NCBI RefSeq assembly: GCF_900109515.1 | Contig: NZ_FOBD01000002.1 | Location: 186,001-250,000 of the forward strand | DNA: 64,000 bases | Direction: 5' to 3' | Source of the DNA: Paenibacillus sp. OK003 | Lineage (GTDB): Bacteria; Bacillota; Bacilli; Paenibacillales; Paenibacillaceae | Part shown: in pieces, positions 7,725 through 14,370 of the stretch | How the letters are laid out: each line of letters starts with the position of its first letter | Numbering within the stretch: the stretch's first letter is position 1 | Position numbers and translations under genes: made by a program | The notes under the pieces: model-generated | Databases searched by the model: none | Seen by the model: the letters and a program-made list of their open reading frames with translations, nothing else | What the model was told of the DNA's origin: nothing

Positions 7725-8726
7725 TTGAATATTGTCATTACAGGGGCTTCTGGATTTGTAGGGTTTAACCTTTCACAGTATTTGGTGCAAAAGGGCTATC
7801 GAATCACCCTGGTGGACCAGGATGATTATTGTCAGAGGCTTGTTCACAGCTCTCCACTTCATGAGATGGCCTTTATCTGTTGTGATCTCGCGAAGGACAG
7901 ATTCAGCTTGCCGCACGAAACAGACTATATTATTCATCTGGCAGCGATGCCACACGTAGATTATTCGTATCATCACCCCGGAGAAGTGTTTCGTAACAAC
8001 ACCCTCAGTACACAGGCCATTCTGCAATACGCTTCCGATCACCATATTCCGGTGGTGCTGGCTTCATCCGTTGAAGTATACGGAGGGGAGATGGGCAGAG
8101 TGTATCATGAATCCGATGAATATGCTCCGGTATCCCCATACTCTGCTTCCAAAGTAGCCTGTGAGATGCTCGCACGATCCTACGCTCAATGTTACCAGCT
8201 TCCTGTAAAAATATTTCGTTTAACGAATCTCTATGGACCTTGGCAGTTGCCGGACCGGATTATCCCGCGTAATTTTGGCCGAATGATGGACGGCCTTCCT
8301 CTGGATATTCAGGGATCAGCTGTACGTGATTTTCTGTATGTCGATGATGCGCTGCGAGCGATTGAACAGATCATGCTGAATGGACAAGATCAGCAGATCT
8401 ATAACATTTCGACGGGACAAGGAACCACCATGCAAGAGATCGGAGATCTTTTGCAACAACTACACACTTCTAATGAAATGGCGGAGATTCGGGAGCAGGA
8501 GCCCACCCAGTCCAGAGGTTCAAGTCTGGTTGTTCACTCGGGAAAGTTACGGTCAGAGACGGGATGGTTCCCTCAGACGACGCTGGAGCAGGGGCTGGAG
8601 CAGACCTTTCGATGGTATCAGGAACATCCCGAATGGGTAAGACAATTCAGCCGTGAATACCACACGACAAGAGAAGCACGCAGCTTTATTATCGATATGG
8701 CCAGATATGCAGTTCCAGCTATCTAA
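7725..8726 (+). CDS. NAD-dependent epimerase/dehydratase (extended SDR)
   Basis: Extended short-chain dehydrogenase, of the family of UDP-sugar 4-epimerases and dTDP-glucose 4,6-dehydratases. The NAD-binding motif TGASGFVGFNL is at the N-terminus. ASSVEVYG provides the catalytic Ser, YSASK the Tyr and Lys, and RLTNLYGP the usual post-catalytic block. The likely role is nucleotide-sugar modification for envelope polysaccharide; the exact substrate cannot be read. I favour the TTG at 7725 over the ATG at 7719: AAGGGGG ends one base before that ATG but seven before the TTG, and the TTG start gives the standard MNIVITGASG opening. Confidence 0.8.
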   Translation: MNIVITGASGFVGFNLSQYLVQKGYRITLVDQDDYCQRLVHSSPLHEMAFICCDLAKDRFSLPHETDYIIHLAAMPHVDYSYHHPGEVFRNNTLSTQAILQYASDHHIPVVLASSVEVYGGEMGRVYHESDEYAPVSPYSASKVACEMLARSYAQCYQLPVKIFRLTNLYGPWQLPDRIIPRNFGRMMDGLPLDIQGSAVRDFLYVDDALRAIEQIMLNGQDQQIYNISTGQGTTMQEIGDLLQQLHTSNEMAEIREQEPTQSRGSSLVVHSGKLRSETGWFPQTTLEQGLEQTFRWYQEHPEWVRQFSREYHTTREARSFIIDMARYAVPAI

Positions 8727-8733
8727 ACAGGAC

Positions 8734-8783
8734 AAAAAAAGCCAGGGAAGGGTGTAGGGAATAACACCTTCCTTGGCTTTTTT
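8734..8783 (+). terminator. Bidirectional intrinsic terminator
   Basis: Long stem AAAAGCCAGGGAAGG(G)TGT / ACACCTTCCTTGGCTTTT with A and T tracts on either side. It could serve both the epimerase gene (+) and the CsbD-like gene (-). Confidence 0.8.
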
Positions 8784-8886
8784 GCGCCCCCGTCGAATCC
8801 CGGCTTTCAACCAGTATGGACGGTCGGGCAATGATCCTATATTTACTGCACGAATTGTCGTGCGTGTTCACGTTTAACAAATGGAC

Positions 8887-9060
8887 CTAGTGATGTTTTT
8901 TTACATCAGCAATTTTGTCCTGCACAGCACCTTTGGCTTTGTCTTTCTTGCCCTCAGCCTGAAGGGATCTGTTGTTAGTCGCATTACCGATCTGATCCTT
9001 CACTTCGCCTTTCGCCTTGTTGATGCCTGCTTTGATTTTATCGCTAGTTGAATTACTCAT
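8887..9060 (-). CDS. CsbD-like stress protein
   Basis: A 57-residue, highly charged helical protein of the CsbD family (general stress-response proteins of unknown mechanism). KAGINKAKGEVKDQIG and KKDKAKGAVQDKI are the two family repeats. The start is the ATG at 9060, nine bases after AAGGAG; the ATG at 9069 directly abuts the ribosome binding site and is less likely. In Bacillus this family is controlled by the general stress sigma factor; no such promoter was identified here. Confidence 0.85.
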   Translation of the reverse strand: MSNSTSDKIKAGINKAKGEVKDQIGNATNNRSLQAEGKKDKAKGAVQDKIADVKKHH

Positions 9061-9251
9061 ATCGAACATCTCCTTCGTTTCTGGTGTAGTCCTTATTAAC
9101 CGGGATGTCCGTATTCTAAACGTTGCTATTGTGATACGAGCAGAAATTTCTTCTGGATATTCTGTCAGAAATGATCTGTACGAAGAGTCAGTATAAGTAT
9201 AGGCATTGCCTAATGGCGTGCTTCATTAAAGGAATGAGAGGATGTTATGAT

Positions 9252-10184
9252 ATGAGCAATTATATTGGAAATGGTGCGTATTGCTACGCCAATTCAGCTT
9301 CAATGCTGCTTTCGTCCATTGGAGAAAAGGTAGACCCCGGTCTGCTTGAAACCGTCGGTGGCTTTTCAATAGGGGCCTTTCGAACGCAGGAAGACCTTCT
9401 CTTTTTTGATAACTGTACCTCTAGTCCTGATCTGGCCATCAGCAAGGCAATGAGCATTCTGGGATTTCGTGTACGCGAAAGTGCGCAATCATCGGGTACA
9501 GAGATGCCTGTAGATGAGCTAAGAGGGGCTTTGAAGCAGGGTCCTGTAATGATGGGTCCGCTGGATATGGGCAAACTCGTCTACAATCCTAACTCTCCCA
9601 ACCTGGGTGGTTGCGATCATTATGTAGTGGCGTTGAGCATGGAGGGCGATGAAATATGCCTGCATGACCCGGCTGGATTTCCGAATGTCTTCCTGACACT
9701 GGGTACACTTGAGGAAGCATGGAAGTCTGAATTCCCGTGGAGTAGCGGTGTGTATCGACGATGGTGGAGTCCTGAACGCATTGAACAGCCTGATCTGGAG
9801 GAGATTAACCGCCGCGCTTTTACTTGGTTCAAATCAAGCCTTGCAGCACAGATCCATGATATTGCTGCACAGGAAGGGCGAACAGGAGCTTCAGCGATTC
9901 TTCATAAGGCGGAACAGGTTCGTGCTGGAGCAATCGATGGTAATGAGTGGGCTCATTATGTGTATTTTGCTCTGCCAGTAGGCGCGCGTCGTGCCCATGA
10001 TTATGGTTTATTTTTTAAAACAATCCATCCTGACCTTTCTGCTTTGAAATACGCACAGTCCCGCCAATTTGGGGAATGCCAATCTCGTCTTGTCTCCCGG
10101 AACTGGGAGGCTGCTGCGACAATCATGGTGGCACTCGCGGAGACGGAAGCCATGATCGAGGCTGCTATTTTGAAGATGGAATAA
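9252..10184 (+). CDS. BtrH-N/C39-like papain-fold protein, possible acyltransferase or amidohydrolase
   Basis: A 310-residue soluble protein. The N-terminal half resembles BtrH-type / peptidase C39-like domains: Cys11 in GAYCYANSASMLLSSIG, His123 in CDHYVVAL and Asp139 in CLHDPAG form a plausible Cys-His-Asp triad. The C-terminal half is helical (DUF4872-like in layout). BtrH moves an acyl side chain from a carrier protein onto an aminoglycoside; related proteins are largely uncharacterised. The start is the ATG at 9252, nine bases after GAGAGGA; upstream ATGs have worse spacing. The next gene, 49 bases on, is a sigma factor whose C-terminal domain looks like a divergent copy of this protein. 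Family call is from motif reading only. Confidence 0.55.
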   Translation: MSNYIGNGAYCYANSASMLLSSIGEKVDPGLLETVGGFSIGAFRTQEDLLFFDNCTSSPDLAISKAMSILGFRVRESAQSSGTEMPVDELRGALKQGPVMMGPLDMGKLVYNPNSPNLGGCDHYVVALSMEGDEICLHDPAGFPNVFLTLGTLEEAWKSEFPWSSGVYRRWWSPERIEQPDLEEINRRAFTWFKSSLAAQIHDIAAQEGRTGASAILHKAEQVRAGAIDGNEWAHYVYFALPVGARRAHDYGLFFKTIHPDLSALKYAQSRQFGECQSRLVSRNWEAAATIMVALAETEAMIEAAILKME

Positions 10185-10233
10185 TGTAAATGTAAGTGTA
10201 AGTGAAGCAAGGCTATGAGAAAGGGAGATACAC

Positions 10234-12033
10234 ATGGATGAATTAGCTGACAATCGCCATATCAGGCCAGGGGAAGATGAGACATTCGAGAATCGGCAAA
10301 AGCAGTCGGACATCGGGCTTATCCAACGAGCCCAAACTGGGGATACAGAGGCCTTTGGTGAATTGATTCACCGTTACCGTGGGCAATTGTTCCGTTATGT
10401 GCGAGCACTTACATATGATTCTTATCTCGCAGAAGACATTTTACAGGATGGGCTTATTCGGGCATTCATTCATATGGGGCAGCTTCAGAATGCCGAGCGT
10501 TTTATGGCCTGGATGCAGCGCATTGTGCGTAATCAGGCGTACTCACATATGCAACGCCAAAAACAGCAGCGGGAACAACACTTTTCTTCGTTCTTTGCAT
10601 TTGGATTTGGAGCCGATGATGCCTCATGGAGCGATCAAGACTCGCTCGACATGACGCTGAACCATCTTTTGAATGACACCGAACGGAGATCGCAGGAAAC
10701 AGGCTATGATCCATATCAAGCTGTTGCTCAGCAGGAAATGAGGAATAATCTCCACGAGCTGCTGGGTTGTCTGAATGAGAGAGAGCAGCAGGTCTTCACA
10801 TCGTATTGGATGGAGCAGCTGTCACCGCAAGAAATGGCCTGTAAATTCAATCTGACAAGTGCCAATGTGTATCAACTTCTGTCCCGTTCACGTAAAAAAG
10901 TGTCCCAGCTTCATATTCATTTATCCGTAGAAGAAATGCTGGCAGAGTGGAATTCACTCGGGCAACATCGAGTGATTCTGGAGGAACCCCTTTCGTTTCG
11001 GGCTCCCCAAACCTGGAACTCGGCAGCAGCATCCATTCACGAGATGTTAGGCTATATCGGTCCATCTCCGTCTCTCCCCATGGTTATGGGGATGAGTGGA
11101 TTGGCTTTCCGTCTAACCATCCTGCCTCAGGACCTACATATCGCTGGACCCACCGCCTACAACTTCAAAGAGGTACTTACCAGAGGATTGCACCATATGG
11201 GTTATCGTTCCCATGCGGTTGAGGCTTTGGCGAGCGAAGCGGGGCTCAATGCCAATCTGGTCGATCCTTTGATGCTAGAGGAGAAAGCGAAGGGGAAAAG
11301 GTTGCTAAATCCAAGGCTTGTTCGGGCCCTCTCCCTGATTCGTTACTCCATTCATCGGGGAATTCCGGCCGTCGTATGGGACCTGAATATTCCCGAATTC
11401 GGATTGATTTATGGCTATGATGATGCAGCCCGGACCCTGTACGGTACAGATTTCATTAAATCAGGGACAATTCCCTATGATCATGTAGGCCGTGGTGTGA
11501 ATCAGGAAGTATTTGTACTGGCAGCGGAATCAGATGGCATGATACGAGAAATGAACTTGCGCGCGGCACTGACGGATGTTTTGGCTCATTATCGTGGGGA
11601 GGACCCGTATACCTTGCCGAACACAGTCAGTGGTCTGGCTGCTTATGCGGTCTGGAGAGAAGCCCTAGAAAATAGATGGTTAGAGCCGAACGGTCATGCC
11701 TATAACATTGCGGTTTTGTGGGATGCAAGACGTTATGCAAGTGACTTTTTCAAAGAACTTTCTGTAAAGTGGGCTTCGACTACCCGGTATTTCAGCCTGA
11801 TTCCACTCTGTCTTCAGGCGGAAGAGTTATATCGAAACATGTCCCAAAGGTTAAACATGCTCAAGCAGTGTTTTCCTTTTCCAGATGGAGGACTGCCTAA
11901 TGAGAAGCTTCATGCCGATCAGGCTATCTCGATACTTCTGGAGATAGAGGAATTGGAGCGGGCTGCTGTCGTTGTCGTAAAAGCATTGCTTGAAGGAATG
12001 GCTCAGCATTCCCCAGAAATCGTTATGGTGTGA
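10234..12033 (+). CDS. ECF-like sigma factor fused to an inactive-looking BtrH/C39-like domain
   Basis: A 599-residue fusion. Residues 28-112 are sigma region 2 (AEDILQDGLIRAFIHMGQL, FMAWMQRIVRNQAY) and about 172-225 are region 4 (LNEREQQVFTSYW, then the helix-turn-helix LSPQEMACKFNLTSANVYQL). Region 3 is absent, as in ECF factors, and the linker is unusually long. Residues about 255-595 follow the same order of blocks as the preceding gene product: TWNSAAASIHEMLGYIG, a GMSGLAFR segment, IPAVVWDLNIPEFGLIYGYD, and a helical tail with AVLWDARRYASDFFKELS. The Cys is replaced by Asn262 and the His by Phe389, while an Asp (406) remains, so the domain is probably a ligand sensor rather than an enzyme. 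AAAGGGAGA precedes the ATG. No anti-sigma gene is adjacent. Confidence 0.75.
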   Translation: MDELADNRHIRPGEDETFENRQKQSDIGLIQRAQTGDTEAFGELIHRYRGQLFRYVRALTYDSYLAEDILQDGLIRAFIHMGQLQNAERFMAWMQRIVRNQAYSHMQRQKQQREQHFSSFFAFGFGADDASWSDQDSLDMTLNHLLNDTERRSQETGYDPYQAVAQQEMRNNLHELLGCLNEREQQVFTSYWMEQLSPQEMACKFNLTSANVYQLLSRSRKKVSQLHIHLSVEEMLAEWNSLGQHRVILEEPLSFRAPQTWNSAAASIHEMLGYIGPSPSLPMVMGMSGLAFRLTILPQDLHIAGPTAYNFKEVLTRGLHHMGYRSHAVEALASEAGLNANLVDPLMLEEKAKGKRLLNPRLVRALSLIRYSIHRGIPAVVWDLNIPEFGLIYGYDDAARTLYGTDFIKSGTIPYDHVGRGVNQEVFVLAAESDGMIREMNLRAALTDVLAHYRGEDPYTLPNTVSGLAAYAVWREALENRWLEPNGHAYNIAVLWDARRYASDFFKELSVKWASTTRYFSLIPLCLQAEELYRNMSQRLNMLKQCFPFPDGGLPNEKLHADQAISILLEIEELERAAVVVVKALLEGMAQHSPEIVMV

Positions 12034-12154
12034 CCTAAATGTAACGATCCAATTAAGGCGAACAGTGAAACAAATATCAGGAGGCAGGGCGAGCCGTCAG
12101 GCCTTCTATCTGTCTTTTTTGCTTTCGTGCCAGGATAGGTTCATACTTGAACAA

Positions 12155-12341
12155 GAAATGATGTCATTTCAGGAATAAGGCTGCACCCCTAGCTGCATAA
12201 TAACGACAGTGACCAATTTCGTTGCATGAAATTCATGTTTTTGGAAAACAATTCCTGAAAAATTCAGTTGAAAAAATCCTTCCTTGTGTACCTATCGCAC
12301 ATATGGTCATATGTGATCTTGTCTTCATACCACATGTGGTA
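12155..12341. promoter_or_regulatory. Cluster of four short perfect palindromes
   Basis: In the 685-base gap before yjlC lie GAAATGATGTCATTTC (12155-12170), CATGAAATTCATG (12225-12237), CACATATGGTCATATGTG (12298-12315) and TACCACATGTGGTA (12328-12341). None is followed by a T tract. They look like dimeric-regulator sites rather than terminators. No gene was found in 12034-12718. Confidence 0.4.
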
Positions 12342-12393
12342 GGATGACGGATCTGGGACAGGAGAATAATCGATTTTGACCCGACCGCAATGC

Positions 12394-12429
12394 TTGACAA
12401 AAAAATCGATTTTGTTACAATGTTCACAA
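12394..12429 (+). promoter_or_regulatory. yjlC-ndh promoter with overlapping Rex-like operator
   Basis: TTGACA (12394-12399), a 16-base spacer and TACAAT (12416-12421) form a good sigma-A promoter. TTGTTACAATGTTCACAA (12412-12429) matches the Bacillus Rex consensus TTGTGAANNNNTTCACAA at 12 of 14 defined positions and covers the -10 box. A further TTCACAA is at 12434-12440. Two AATCGATTTTG repeats (12368, 12404) flank the -35. Start of transcription here would give a leader of about 290 bases. Confidence 0.6.
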
Positions 12430-12718
12430 TATCTTCACAAGTGTAAAAAATTTCTTTTTCATGTTCATGTGTAAGAGGTGTAATATAGGGGTATAGAGTT
12501 CGGTTTCGGCCTGCTTGTCGTTTTGCGTCAACACATGTTGTCCGCAATAGACCCAAGATACAATACACGATGTGGGAACGGCCCTTGGGCTATGCTCATT
12601 CTATTGTGTGAAATTTGGTACATTTAGTTGTATTGGATGTATTTGTGGTTCGGCTCTGCTTGACAGGCATCATGAAAGTCGCGGACTTCTATCCCAAAGT
12701 AAAGGAGGACTTTCTCTT

Positions 12719-13165
12719 ATGTCACAATCGCCTACTCAACAAGAGGTGCCGGTTACAGAAGGTGCCGACGTTTCCCAACGCCAGTCCTTGGACGTACTGG
12801 ATCAACTGATGAAGCCTGAGGTACAGGAGTCTCTGACCGTTCTGGTGGAGAACCTGCCTAAACTGGCTGAAATGGTCACTGCTATGACCAAAGCTTATGA
12901 TTTTGCACAAAGCGTAGCTACAGACAAAGTTCTGATCAGCGACACAATGAGCGCAATGGGCGAGTTTGCTAAACCTGTTGTAGACAAAGCTAAAGGTGTA
13001 GCTTCTGCTGCCATCGAAGCGAATGATCGTGCGCAAGCCGAGCAAACTTCGGTTGGTTTGTTCGCTATGCTCAAAATGCTTAAAGATCCAAACGTACAAC
13101 AAACGCTGCGTTTTGCTCAATCATTCTTGAGCATCCTGAACGAGCGTCAACAACAGCAACGTTAA
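12719..13165 (+). CDS. yjlC: DUF1641 protein YjlC
   Basis: A 148-residue helical protein of the DUF1641 family. In Bacillus subtilis the homologous gene yjlC lies directly upstream of ndh in one operon, exactly as here (23-base gap). Recognisable blocks are LDVLDQLMKPEVQESLTVLV and GLFAMLKMLKDPNVQQTLRF. Biochemical role unknown; probably an accessory to the respiratory dehydrogenase. The start is the ATG at 12719 behind AAAGGAGG; a longer in-frame extension back to 12572 has no ribosome binding site. Confidence 0.85.
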   Translation: MSQSPTQQEVPVTEGADVSQRQSLDVLDQLMKPEVQESLTVLVENLPKLAEMVTAMTKAYDFAQSVATDKVLISDTMSAMGEFAKPVVDKAKGVASAAIEANDRAQAEQTSVGLFAMLKMLKDPNVQQTLRFAQSFLSILNERQQQQR

Positions 13166-13188
13166 GATTAGAAGAACGGAGGATGGAT

Positions 13189-14370
13189 ATGTCGAAGCAA
13201 ATTTTGATCTTGGGCGGAGGTTACGGTGGTCTGTTGACTGCGCTGACTGCGCGTCAATACCTGACACCGGAAGAAGCAACTATTACAGTTGTGAACCGTT
13301 ACCCTACGCACCAAATTATTACGGAACTGCACCGTCTTGCAGCAGGAAGCATTGCTGAAAAAGCAGTTGCCCTTCCACTCGAAAAATTGCTGAGTGGTAA
13401 AAATGTGAACTTGAAAATCGATACGGTGGACACAATCAAGCCGGACGAGAAAAAAGTTCTCATGACCAGCGGTTCTACTTACTCTTACGATGCACTCGTT
13501 GTTGCCTTGGGCAGTGAAACGGCATTCTTCGGAATTCCGGGATTGCAGGAGTACAGCTTCACGCTGAAATCCGTTAGCGATGCTAACCGCATTCGTGCAC
13601 ACGTGGAAGCTCGCTTGGATGCTTACAAACAATCCGGCAACAAAGCAGACGCTACGTTTGTTATCGGTGGCGGTGGTTTGACAGGTATCGAGCTTGTTGG
13701 TGAATTCGCTGACCTTCTTCCGGCTGTATGCCAAGAAAAAGGTATCGACTTCAAAGAAGTTTCCCTGTACACGGTTGAAGCAGGTCCTTCCATCCTGGCA
13801 GGATTCCCGCCAGAACTGGTTGAGCGTGCAAAATCAAGTCTTGAGAAACGTGGCGTTAACTTCATCGTTGGCGTAGCGATTACCGAAATGAAAGAAAATG
13901 AAGTTCTGCTGAAAGACGGAAGCTCGATCCCTACGAACACACTCGTATGGACAGGTGGCGTACAAGGCAACGCTGTTGTTGCTAACAGCGGAATTGAAGT
14001 GGATCGCGGCCGTGCGAAAGTTACGGAAGTTCTGCAATCTACTTCTCACAAAGACGTGTTTGTTGCTGGTGACAGCGCAGTGGTCTTCCCTAGCGAAGGC
14101 GCTCGTCCATACCCTCCAACAGCACAATTGGCTTGGCAAATGGGTGAGACTATTGGTCACAACCTGAGCGTAATGTTCAAAGGTGGCGCAATGGAATCCT
14201 TCACGCCAGTATTCTCCGGTACACTGGGAAGTCTGGGTCGTAAGGATGCTGTCGGCATGATCGGTGGCAACCAGACTCGTCTGAAAGGTCTGCCAGCAAC
14301 CATGATGAAAGAAGCAAGTAACATCCGTTACCTTGCTCATATTCACGGTTTGTTTGCACTGGCTTACTAA
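13189..14370 (+). CDS. ndh: Type II NADH dehydrogenase
   Basis: Single-subunit, non-proton-pumping NADH:menaquinone oxidoreductase, peripheral on the inner face of the membrane. The N-terminal FAD motif is ILILGGGYGGLLTALTA, the NADH motif is FVIGGGGLTGIELVGEFAD, and the late FAD block is VFVAGDSAVV. 393 residues is the usual length. The start is the ATG at 13189, six bases after GGAGG, rather than the ATG at 13183 that touches it. Downstream of yjlC; the shared promoter carries a Rex-like site, so the operon should respond to the NADH/NAD ratio as in B. subtilis. Confidence 0.92.
   Translation: MSKQILILGGGYGGLLTALTARQYLTPEEATITVVNRYPTHQIITELHRLAAGSIAEKAVALPLEKLLSGKNVNLKIDTVDTIKPDEKKVLMTSGSTYSYDALVVALGSETAFFGIPGLQEYSFTLKSVSDANRIRAHVEARLDAYKQSGNKADATFVIGGGGLTGIELVGEFADLLPAVCQEKGIDFKEVSLYTVEAGPSILAGFPPELVERAKSSLEKRGVNFIVGVAITEMKENEVLLKDGSSIPTNTLVWTGGVQGNAVVANSGIEVDRGRAKVTEVLQSTSHKDVFVAGDSAVVFPSEGARPYPPTAQLAWQMGETIGHNLSVMFKGGAMESFTPVFSGTLGSLGRKDAVGMIGGNQTRLKGLPATMMKEASNIRYLAHIHGLFALAY

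Follow-up and report, generated by a model that had tools for sequence, protein, structure and literature searches.

A Paenibacillus ECF sigma factor with a BtrH-like pseudoenzyme domain and its predicted link to an intact-looking enzyme with the same modeled fold

The P0001-P0002 locus and its products

The window analyzed here is a stretch of 64,000 nucleotides from Paenibacillus sp. OK003 (contig NZ_FOBD01000002.1, positions 186,001 to 250,000), part of a 6.7-Mb genome; the relatives of its P0002 are named Paenibacillus. It contains two genes on the same strand, P0001 and P0002, that are separated by a gap of 49 bp (Table 1). P0002 encodes an extracytoplasmic function (ECF) sigma factor, regions 2 and 4 of which are both above the Pfam cut-offs, and the sigma70-ECF superfamily model gives it 87.5 bits (cut-off 42.9). 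The last 355 residues (the C-domain), in which no Pfam family was found at E values up to 1, are predicted to have the fold of the BtrH-type acyltransferases without the catalytic Cys and His, and P0001 is predicted to be an intact enzyme of that fold. The coordinates, lengths, and domain order given in an earlier examination of the letters alone (the sequence-only reading) proved correct on re-reading, and the ECF-like regions 2 and 4 recognized there are borne out by the Pfam and superfamily matches.

Table 1. Coordinates of the features of the locus, as positions in the window
Feature	Position	Strand	Description
Promoter-like site TGTCAGAA-N14-GAGTC	9163..9189	+	Predicted to be bound by the P0002 sigma factor; P0001 and P0002 would be transcribed from it together
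P0001	9252..10184	+	310 aa; BtrH/CtaG-like, C11-H123-D139 intact; predicted cysteine acyltransferase or hydrolase
P0002	10234..12033	+	599 aa; ECF sigma factor and BtrH-like domain without catalytic Cys/His
Sigma region 2 (P0002 residues 44-110)	10363..10563	+	PF04542, E 2.1e-11
Sigma region 4 (P0002 residues 171-222)	10744..10899	+	PF08281, E 8.6e-10
Pseudo-catalytic papain-like half of C-domain (residues ~259-432)	11008..11529	+	Model, structure matches, residue census, profile comparison
Helical-bundle half of C-domain (residues ~433-595)	11530..12018	+	Model; AziU3/CtaG/CcbD matches extend through it

The model of the C-domain (predicted local distance difference test score, pLDDT, of 91) has a two-domain fold as in the BtrH-type acyltransferases AziU3, CtaG, and CcbD. 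AziU3 (13% identity) is an enzyme of the azinomycin biosynthetic pathway and, to our knowledge, is not known joined to a sigma factor. The models of P0001 and of the C-domain are both confident and align with one common set of solved structures along the greater part of their lengths, the best structural match of P0001 being CtaG; like members of the BtrH family, both are predicted to have a papain-like half and a helical bundle. The likeness between the two that the sequence-only reading had proposed is seen in the models but not in direct comparisons, where BLASTP detected no similarity between P0001 and the C-domain and profile-profile alignment gave a nonsignificant score of 21 (17-18 for reversed controls). 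A profile of ten BtrH_N proteins from Paenibacillus and Brevibacillus genomes matched both the C-domain (95.3%) and P0001 (94.2%); the relation between them rests on this bridge together with structure. Fold and profile similarity place both in a BtrH-like superfamily, and the models predict that they share the BtrH-type acyltransferase fold. The kinship with PF14399 (BtrH_N) that had been put forward holds at the level of this profile but not of Pfam, where P0001 scored 14.8 bits (cut-off 29.7) and the C-domain gave no match. P0001 has no NCBIfam match, and a sequence search of PDB chains returned no relative of the C-domain or of P0001 (best E value 0.28, to an unrelated kinase). A BtrH_N protein of ~335 residues (L160-L169), which is strongly conserved (E values of about 1e-42 to 1e-44), was found in 9 of 46 genomes searched.

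Cys11, His123, and Asp139 of P0001, which had been singled out from the sequence as a catalytic set, are each retained in 84 of 85 family rows, as in a BtrH-like cysteine acyltransferase, and their numbering parallels that of Cys11, His128, and Asp144 in CtaG, which are named in the titles of mutant structures (C11A, H128A, D144N). P0112 and P0141, relatives of P0001 at 39% identity, come from bins of metagenomes that bear the names Dojkabacteria and "bacterium" and are distant from Bacilli. Neither P0001 nor P0002 reaches the hydrophobicity expected of a transmembrane stretch (the highest mean over 19 residues is 1.47), and control of P0002 is therefore likely to be cytoplasmic.

The C-domain across genomes

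When one genome per species was scanned, 193 relatives were obtained, and the best 80 of them were analyzed as loci. Of these 80 loci, 54 encode the C-domain as a fusion with a sigma factor and 26 as a stand-alone gene; 25 of the 26 lie directly behind a sigma gene, with a spacing that ranges mostly from a slight overlap to ~30 bp. L117, the exception, is cut off by the end of its contig, and L127 has a broken sigma gene. The C-domain is joined to or adjoins a sigma factor in 79 of the 80 loci, the remaining one being cut by the contig end. The split sigma proteins end in a tail that resembles the linker of the fusions, and this linker is kept in the fused proteins, in keeping with an ECF sigma factor that has a regulatory extension as a conserved domain C-terminal to region 4. 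The occurrence of fused and split forms in one family is a usual sign of proteins acting together, and the C-domain is therefore the sigma factor's own partner, as was supposed when it was first described as built in. In a tree of 86 C-domains, the fused state needs 3 changes, compared with 25.5 when labels are shuffled, and one of the three is the cut contig L117, counted as split; the main fused group is a single clade (97/100), with L128 outside it. It should be noted that a genome tally with the P0002 profile is unusable as a count of C-domains, because the profile includes the sigma part and its weak rows are ordinary sigma factors; single rows were used instead. A plasmid search gave one match, at 34% identity.

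The catalytic positions were compared in a census of 155 aligned C-domain rows, near-copies included. The Cys and His of the intact enzyme had been reported from the sequence as replaced by Asn262 and Phe389, and no row has Cys at position 262, where Thr, Asn, or Ser occurs in 140, or His at position 389, which is Phe in 154; the preceding residue, 388, is Glu in 154. These positions are now refined to Asn262 or Ser263 as the counterpart of the Cys (263 by the start of the helix) and Glu388 (by profile alignment) or Phe389 as that of the His. Judged from the aligned residues, the catalytic Cys-His dyad is absent from the C-domain of P0002 whichever alignment is used. Other positions are nearly invariant (Arg293 in 154 rows, Gly305 in 152, Pro387, Gly394, and Tyr395 in all 155, and Arg499 and Glu575 in 153), and among 13 chosen fusions, mean identity is 64% in region 2, 61% in region 4, 54% in the papain-like half, and 40% in the helical half. 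This pattern of conservation indicates that the C-domain is under selection for something other than Cys-His catalysis. A caveat on its description as a dead domain is that Cys occurs at position 264 in 14 rows, 11 of which are named loci, all from Brevibacillus.

These residues also bear on an alternative that we regard as quite improbable, namely that the C-domain is still an enzyme, with Ser/Thr263 or, in some rows, Cys264 as its nucleophile, and that the fusion couples this enzyme to its own regulator. Position 263 is Ser in 110 rows and Thr in 43 (153 of 155) and an acid at 406 is retained in 143 rows, as such an enzyme might require, and AziU3 acts on a small molecule and its structure in a ligand complex exists. 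However, an enzyme of this kind would have to work with the Glu-Phe pair in place of His, and the almost exclusive occurrence of the C-domain with sigma factors (79 of 80 loci) argues against it.

A promoter-like site and the linkage of P0001

Two-part word counts upstream of sigma genes, made with no prior motif and with start codons guessed by script, led to the pattern TGTCA-N17/18-(G)AGTC(T). The form present upstream of P0001 occurs exactly only once in the window, where 100 shuffles gave none, and only once in the whole genome. Outside the clade to which the window belongs, TGTCAGAA-N14-RAGTC is found with ≤2 mismatches in 39 of 41 fused loci (0.48 in shuffles, highest 3) and without mismatch in 31 of the 41, mostly 59-66 bp before the guessed start codon. 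Three more fused loci (L075, L077, and L083), placed outside this count by a coordinate filter, have the exact site, giving 42 of 44 in all; the loci without it are L080 and L128, and L117, at a contig end, was not counted. The split loci have a related site, TGATAGAT-N13-GGCATC, in 15 of 25 (≤2 mismatches), compared with 0.03 from shuffles, and in a looser scan, 17 of 17 sites were at the 5′ end of the sigma gene and on its strand (control matches, 2). A site that changes along with the fused or split form fits reading by this sigma factor, although recognition is predicted from sequence comparison.

In the clade genomes that have both genes, the site lies 86-89 bp before P0001 in 23 of 23 (21 exact, with one mismatch in L019 and L022), and none lies between P0001 and the sigma gene in the ten examined (≤2 mismatches). 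A search for promoter motifs, proposed in the sequence-only reading, has in this way yielded a conserved site, which is upstream of P0001 in the clade and upstream of the fused sigma gene elsewhere. No match to a sigma-A-type promoter was found in 9050-12250 (shuffles give 4.3) and no Rfam match in 8700-12800.

P0001 and P0002 are present together in all 23 genomes that have P0002, among 75 of the genus that were searched; in the same set, G014 has a P0001 relative of 41% identity with neither P0002 nor the site. Over the whole collection, no relative of P0001 lies within the flanks that were fetched (up to 6 kb on each side) for 43 of the 54 fused loci, and relatives of P0001 occur in 28 of 295 genomes of the family. 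The expectation that the two genes would stay together in related genomes is consequently correct within the clade and mostly fails outside it, and P0001 is to be regarded as an optional output and not an obligatory partner. A second arrangement is found on a distant branch of the tree in Paenibacillus sp. DMB20 (L098), where a P0001-like gene of 28% identity, in which Cys, His, and Asp can be recognized by eye, lies 67 bp behind a fused sigma gene that has the exact site; this order is opposite to that in the window.

Twelve of 13 matches to unlinked P0001 relatives (L026 and L139-L149) were analyzed, the one left out, in G210, being a 37-residue fragment. Three of the 12 have the site, G205 exactly and G178 and G212 with two mismatches (matches as good in 0, 4, and 6 of 1000 shuffles, respectively), and the fused sigma genes of the same genomes also have it, with 0, 0, and 1 mismatch in G205 (one of three sigma genes checked), G178, and G212. 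The fused form is present in G147, G201, and G245 with no exact site genome-wide (in G147 and G245, the sequence preceding the fused gene was read as well), G103 has the split pair only, and no match was obtained at E 1e-25 in G014, G102, G137, G163, and G280. The site is therefore present at the unlinked P0001 in 3 of 3 genomes with a site-bearing fused sigma gene versus 0 of 9 others (one-sided p 0.005, kinship ignored); since G178 and G212 are sister species in the tree, the three represent about two independent events. Eight BtrH_N genes of fused-sigma genomes (L160-L167), used as a negative control, are without the site at ≤2 mismatches, and one of two BtrH_N genes of a split genome has a two-mismatch site on the opposite strand. 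The P0001 relative of G178 (L140) has an internal stop, though its two-mismatch site is retained. The pairing of sensor and enzyme that had been suggested from the sequence thus stands insofar as an intact enzyme lies behind the site in cis (23 of 23) and in trans (3 genomes), but not as an obligatory arrangement.

These distributions make it very improbable that P0001 is a clade-specific passenger that lies beside the sigma gene by chance while the sigma factor controls something else. Such an origin would account for the restriction of linked P0001 relatives to the clade of the window and one distant locus and for the 9 of 12 unlinked relatives without the site. It would not account for the position of the site upstream of P0001 instead of between the two genes, for its being the sole exact one in the genome, or for its recurrence at unlinked P0001 genes where the fused sigma gene has it.

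The genome of the window has eight one-mismatch sites, most of them inside long open frames, and one exact site, and these 9 versus 8 for a control pattern give no sign of further targets there. One of them (L137, G000:C33:265342-265368) is 40 bp before a gene and is a possible further target; we take the product of this gene to resemble alcohol dehydrogenase. A set of 22 other genomes, in 17 of which the fused frame is unbroken and in 5 of which the matched frame contains stops, has 10 exact sites versus 1 for the control; of the 10, 4 are at the sigma gene, 3 at P0001 relatives, and 3 (L152, L153, and L154) without a plausible target on the right strand. The exact TGTCAGAA-N14-RAGTC sites at L153 and L154 (G288 and G265) adjoin a divergent gene, presumably for a D-Ala-D-Ala carboxypeptidase-like protein, and may be due to chance or to a small RNA. 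The 54 fused loci contain 4 extra sites versus 2 for the control, and ten genomes with unlinked P0001 have 3 exact sites versus 3, none at the P0001 relative.

The fused group shares no conserved neighbor of the sigma gene. Genes for EamA transporters are in the flanks of 18 fused loci, few of them directly adjoining the sigma gene, VOC protein genes are present in 8 split loci, and genes for GyrI-like proteins and aldo-keto reductases lie near some split loci. In Evansella halocellulosilytica (L118, 6001 +988 to +5581), a split pair is followed on the same strand by a series of small ligand-handling genes, namely several for VOC-like (glyoxalase-type) proteins, one for an acetyltransferase-like protein, and one for a GyrI-like domain, and this species has a second split pair at L112. 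The mixed neighbors suggest, as a lead only, a response to foreign or reactive small molecules. In the window, the pair is followed at 12572-14370 by a gene of 197 aa and one of 395 aa, the latter presumably NADH-dehydrogenase-like, and other loci of the clade have relatives of these genes at an equal distance. A biosynthetic cluster was not apparent near P0001, although no search was aimed at clusters.

Known systems and a proposed mechanism

At least 26 groups of ECF sigma factors with C-terminal extensions, including SnoaL, TPR, and Cys-rich types that respond to ligands or partners, are described in the extension section and tables of a review (PMC8999054). Like the extended ECF sigma factors treated there (PMC8999054), P0002 has a conserved soluble domain behind regions 2 and 4 instead of an anti-sigma factor, but it differs from the known types in that its extension is a 355-residue BtrH-like pseudoenzyme, which also exists as a separate neighboring gene. 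Membership in ECF41, ECF42, or ECF238 was considered and rejected, as the C-domain has no SnoaL-like, TPR, or Cys-rich Pfam match (E up to 1) and its model is BtrH/AziU3-like. No BtrH-like extension is named in the passages and tables consulted (PMC8999054), and a literature search, with thin coverage of subscription journals, found no report of a BtrH-like domain in a sigma factor. A table entry in that source for ECF264 from Saccharibacillus gives an extension without a stated mechanism (PMC8999054); from this description, ECF264 might be the group of the P0002 type, and an ECF group number for the type may exist already. The BtrH family of acyltransferases (PF14399) includes BtrH of butirosin biosynthesis (PMC10318531), and from this family the C-domain differs in having neither the Cys nor the His and P0001 in falling below the Pfam cut-off. 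CtaG of closthioamide biosynthesis is called a peptidyl transferase in PMC6772006, and P0001 has no detectable sequence similarity to CtaG.

We consider it probable that P0002 is an autoregulated ECF sigma factor in which the pseudoenzyme C-domain serves as a soluble, ligand-responsive control unit that replaces an anti-sigma factor. As part of this reading, the sigma factor drives expression of an intact enzyme that is predicted to share the fold of its C-domain. The sigma factor would recognize TGTCAGAA-N14-RAGTC and so activate its own operon. Between the halves of the C-domain, where the substrate of the acyltransferase was formerly placed, a small molecule would bind, probably a compound suited to that ancestral pocket. 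The C-domain most likely holds regions 2 and 4 inactive or active depending on this ligand, and binding would free or shape them. P0001, expressed from the same promoter, would act on the ligand or a close relative of it and close a feedback loop.

A protein partner in place of the small molecule would, however, leave the same evidence in these sequences. On this reading, which we judge unlikely, the C-domain would dock a protein and respond to it, a role that has been proposed for the TPR extensions of ECF42, and P0001 is a possible partner in a pseudoenzyme-enzyme complex. The shared predicted operon of P0001 and P0002 is in keeping with docking, as is the solved structure of AziU3 in complex with AziU2, and dead enzymes often partner live ones. 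P0001 nevertheless cannot be the general partner, given the 43 fused loci without it and its scarcity in the family, and it is the pseudo-catalytic half that is the more conserved half of the C-domain.

Several other observations weigh against the ligand-responsive, autoregulated sigma factor proposed above. The consensus that defines the site was derived from the very loci used for counting it, and the site is not a mapped promoter; because of this the counts show its presence and not which factor reads it. The sites at P0001 relatives are an independent test, yet two of the three genomes that have them are sister species. P0001 is not linked to the sigma gene in most fused loci, and the search for targets revealed no other recurrent one. 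The equivalents of the Cys and His in the C-domain are fixed only to within one residue, and Foldseek at E 0.001 or better gives AziU3 alone for the C-domain, with template modeling (TM) scores of 0.47-0.51, the matches to CtaG and CcbD coming up solely in a second look (VIA).

The wider reading, that this sigma family turned an acyltransferase fold into a ligand sensor whose dead copy gauges a compound within the promoter-selecting subunit of RNA polymerase, with the intact enzyme, where present in cis or in trans, as its output and the pair in the window as a two-gene feedback circuit of enzyme and dead enzyme on a single promoter in the genome, is offered tentatively, at somewhat less than an even chance. 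If true, it would add a new class of sensor for sigma factors and provide a clean case of a pseudoenzyme that has come to monitor an enzyme with the fold it shares. The existence of both split and fused forms in nature, the strict promoter consensus, and the possible one-operon regulon would make the system testable in Bacillus subtilis and useful as a compact orthogonal switch, and an orphan family of BtrH/CtaG-like enzymes would gain a regulatory context that could lead to its substrate.
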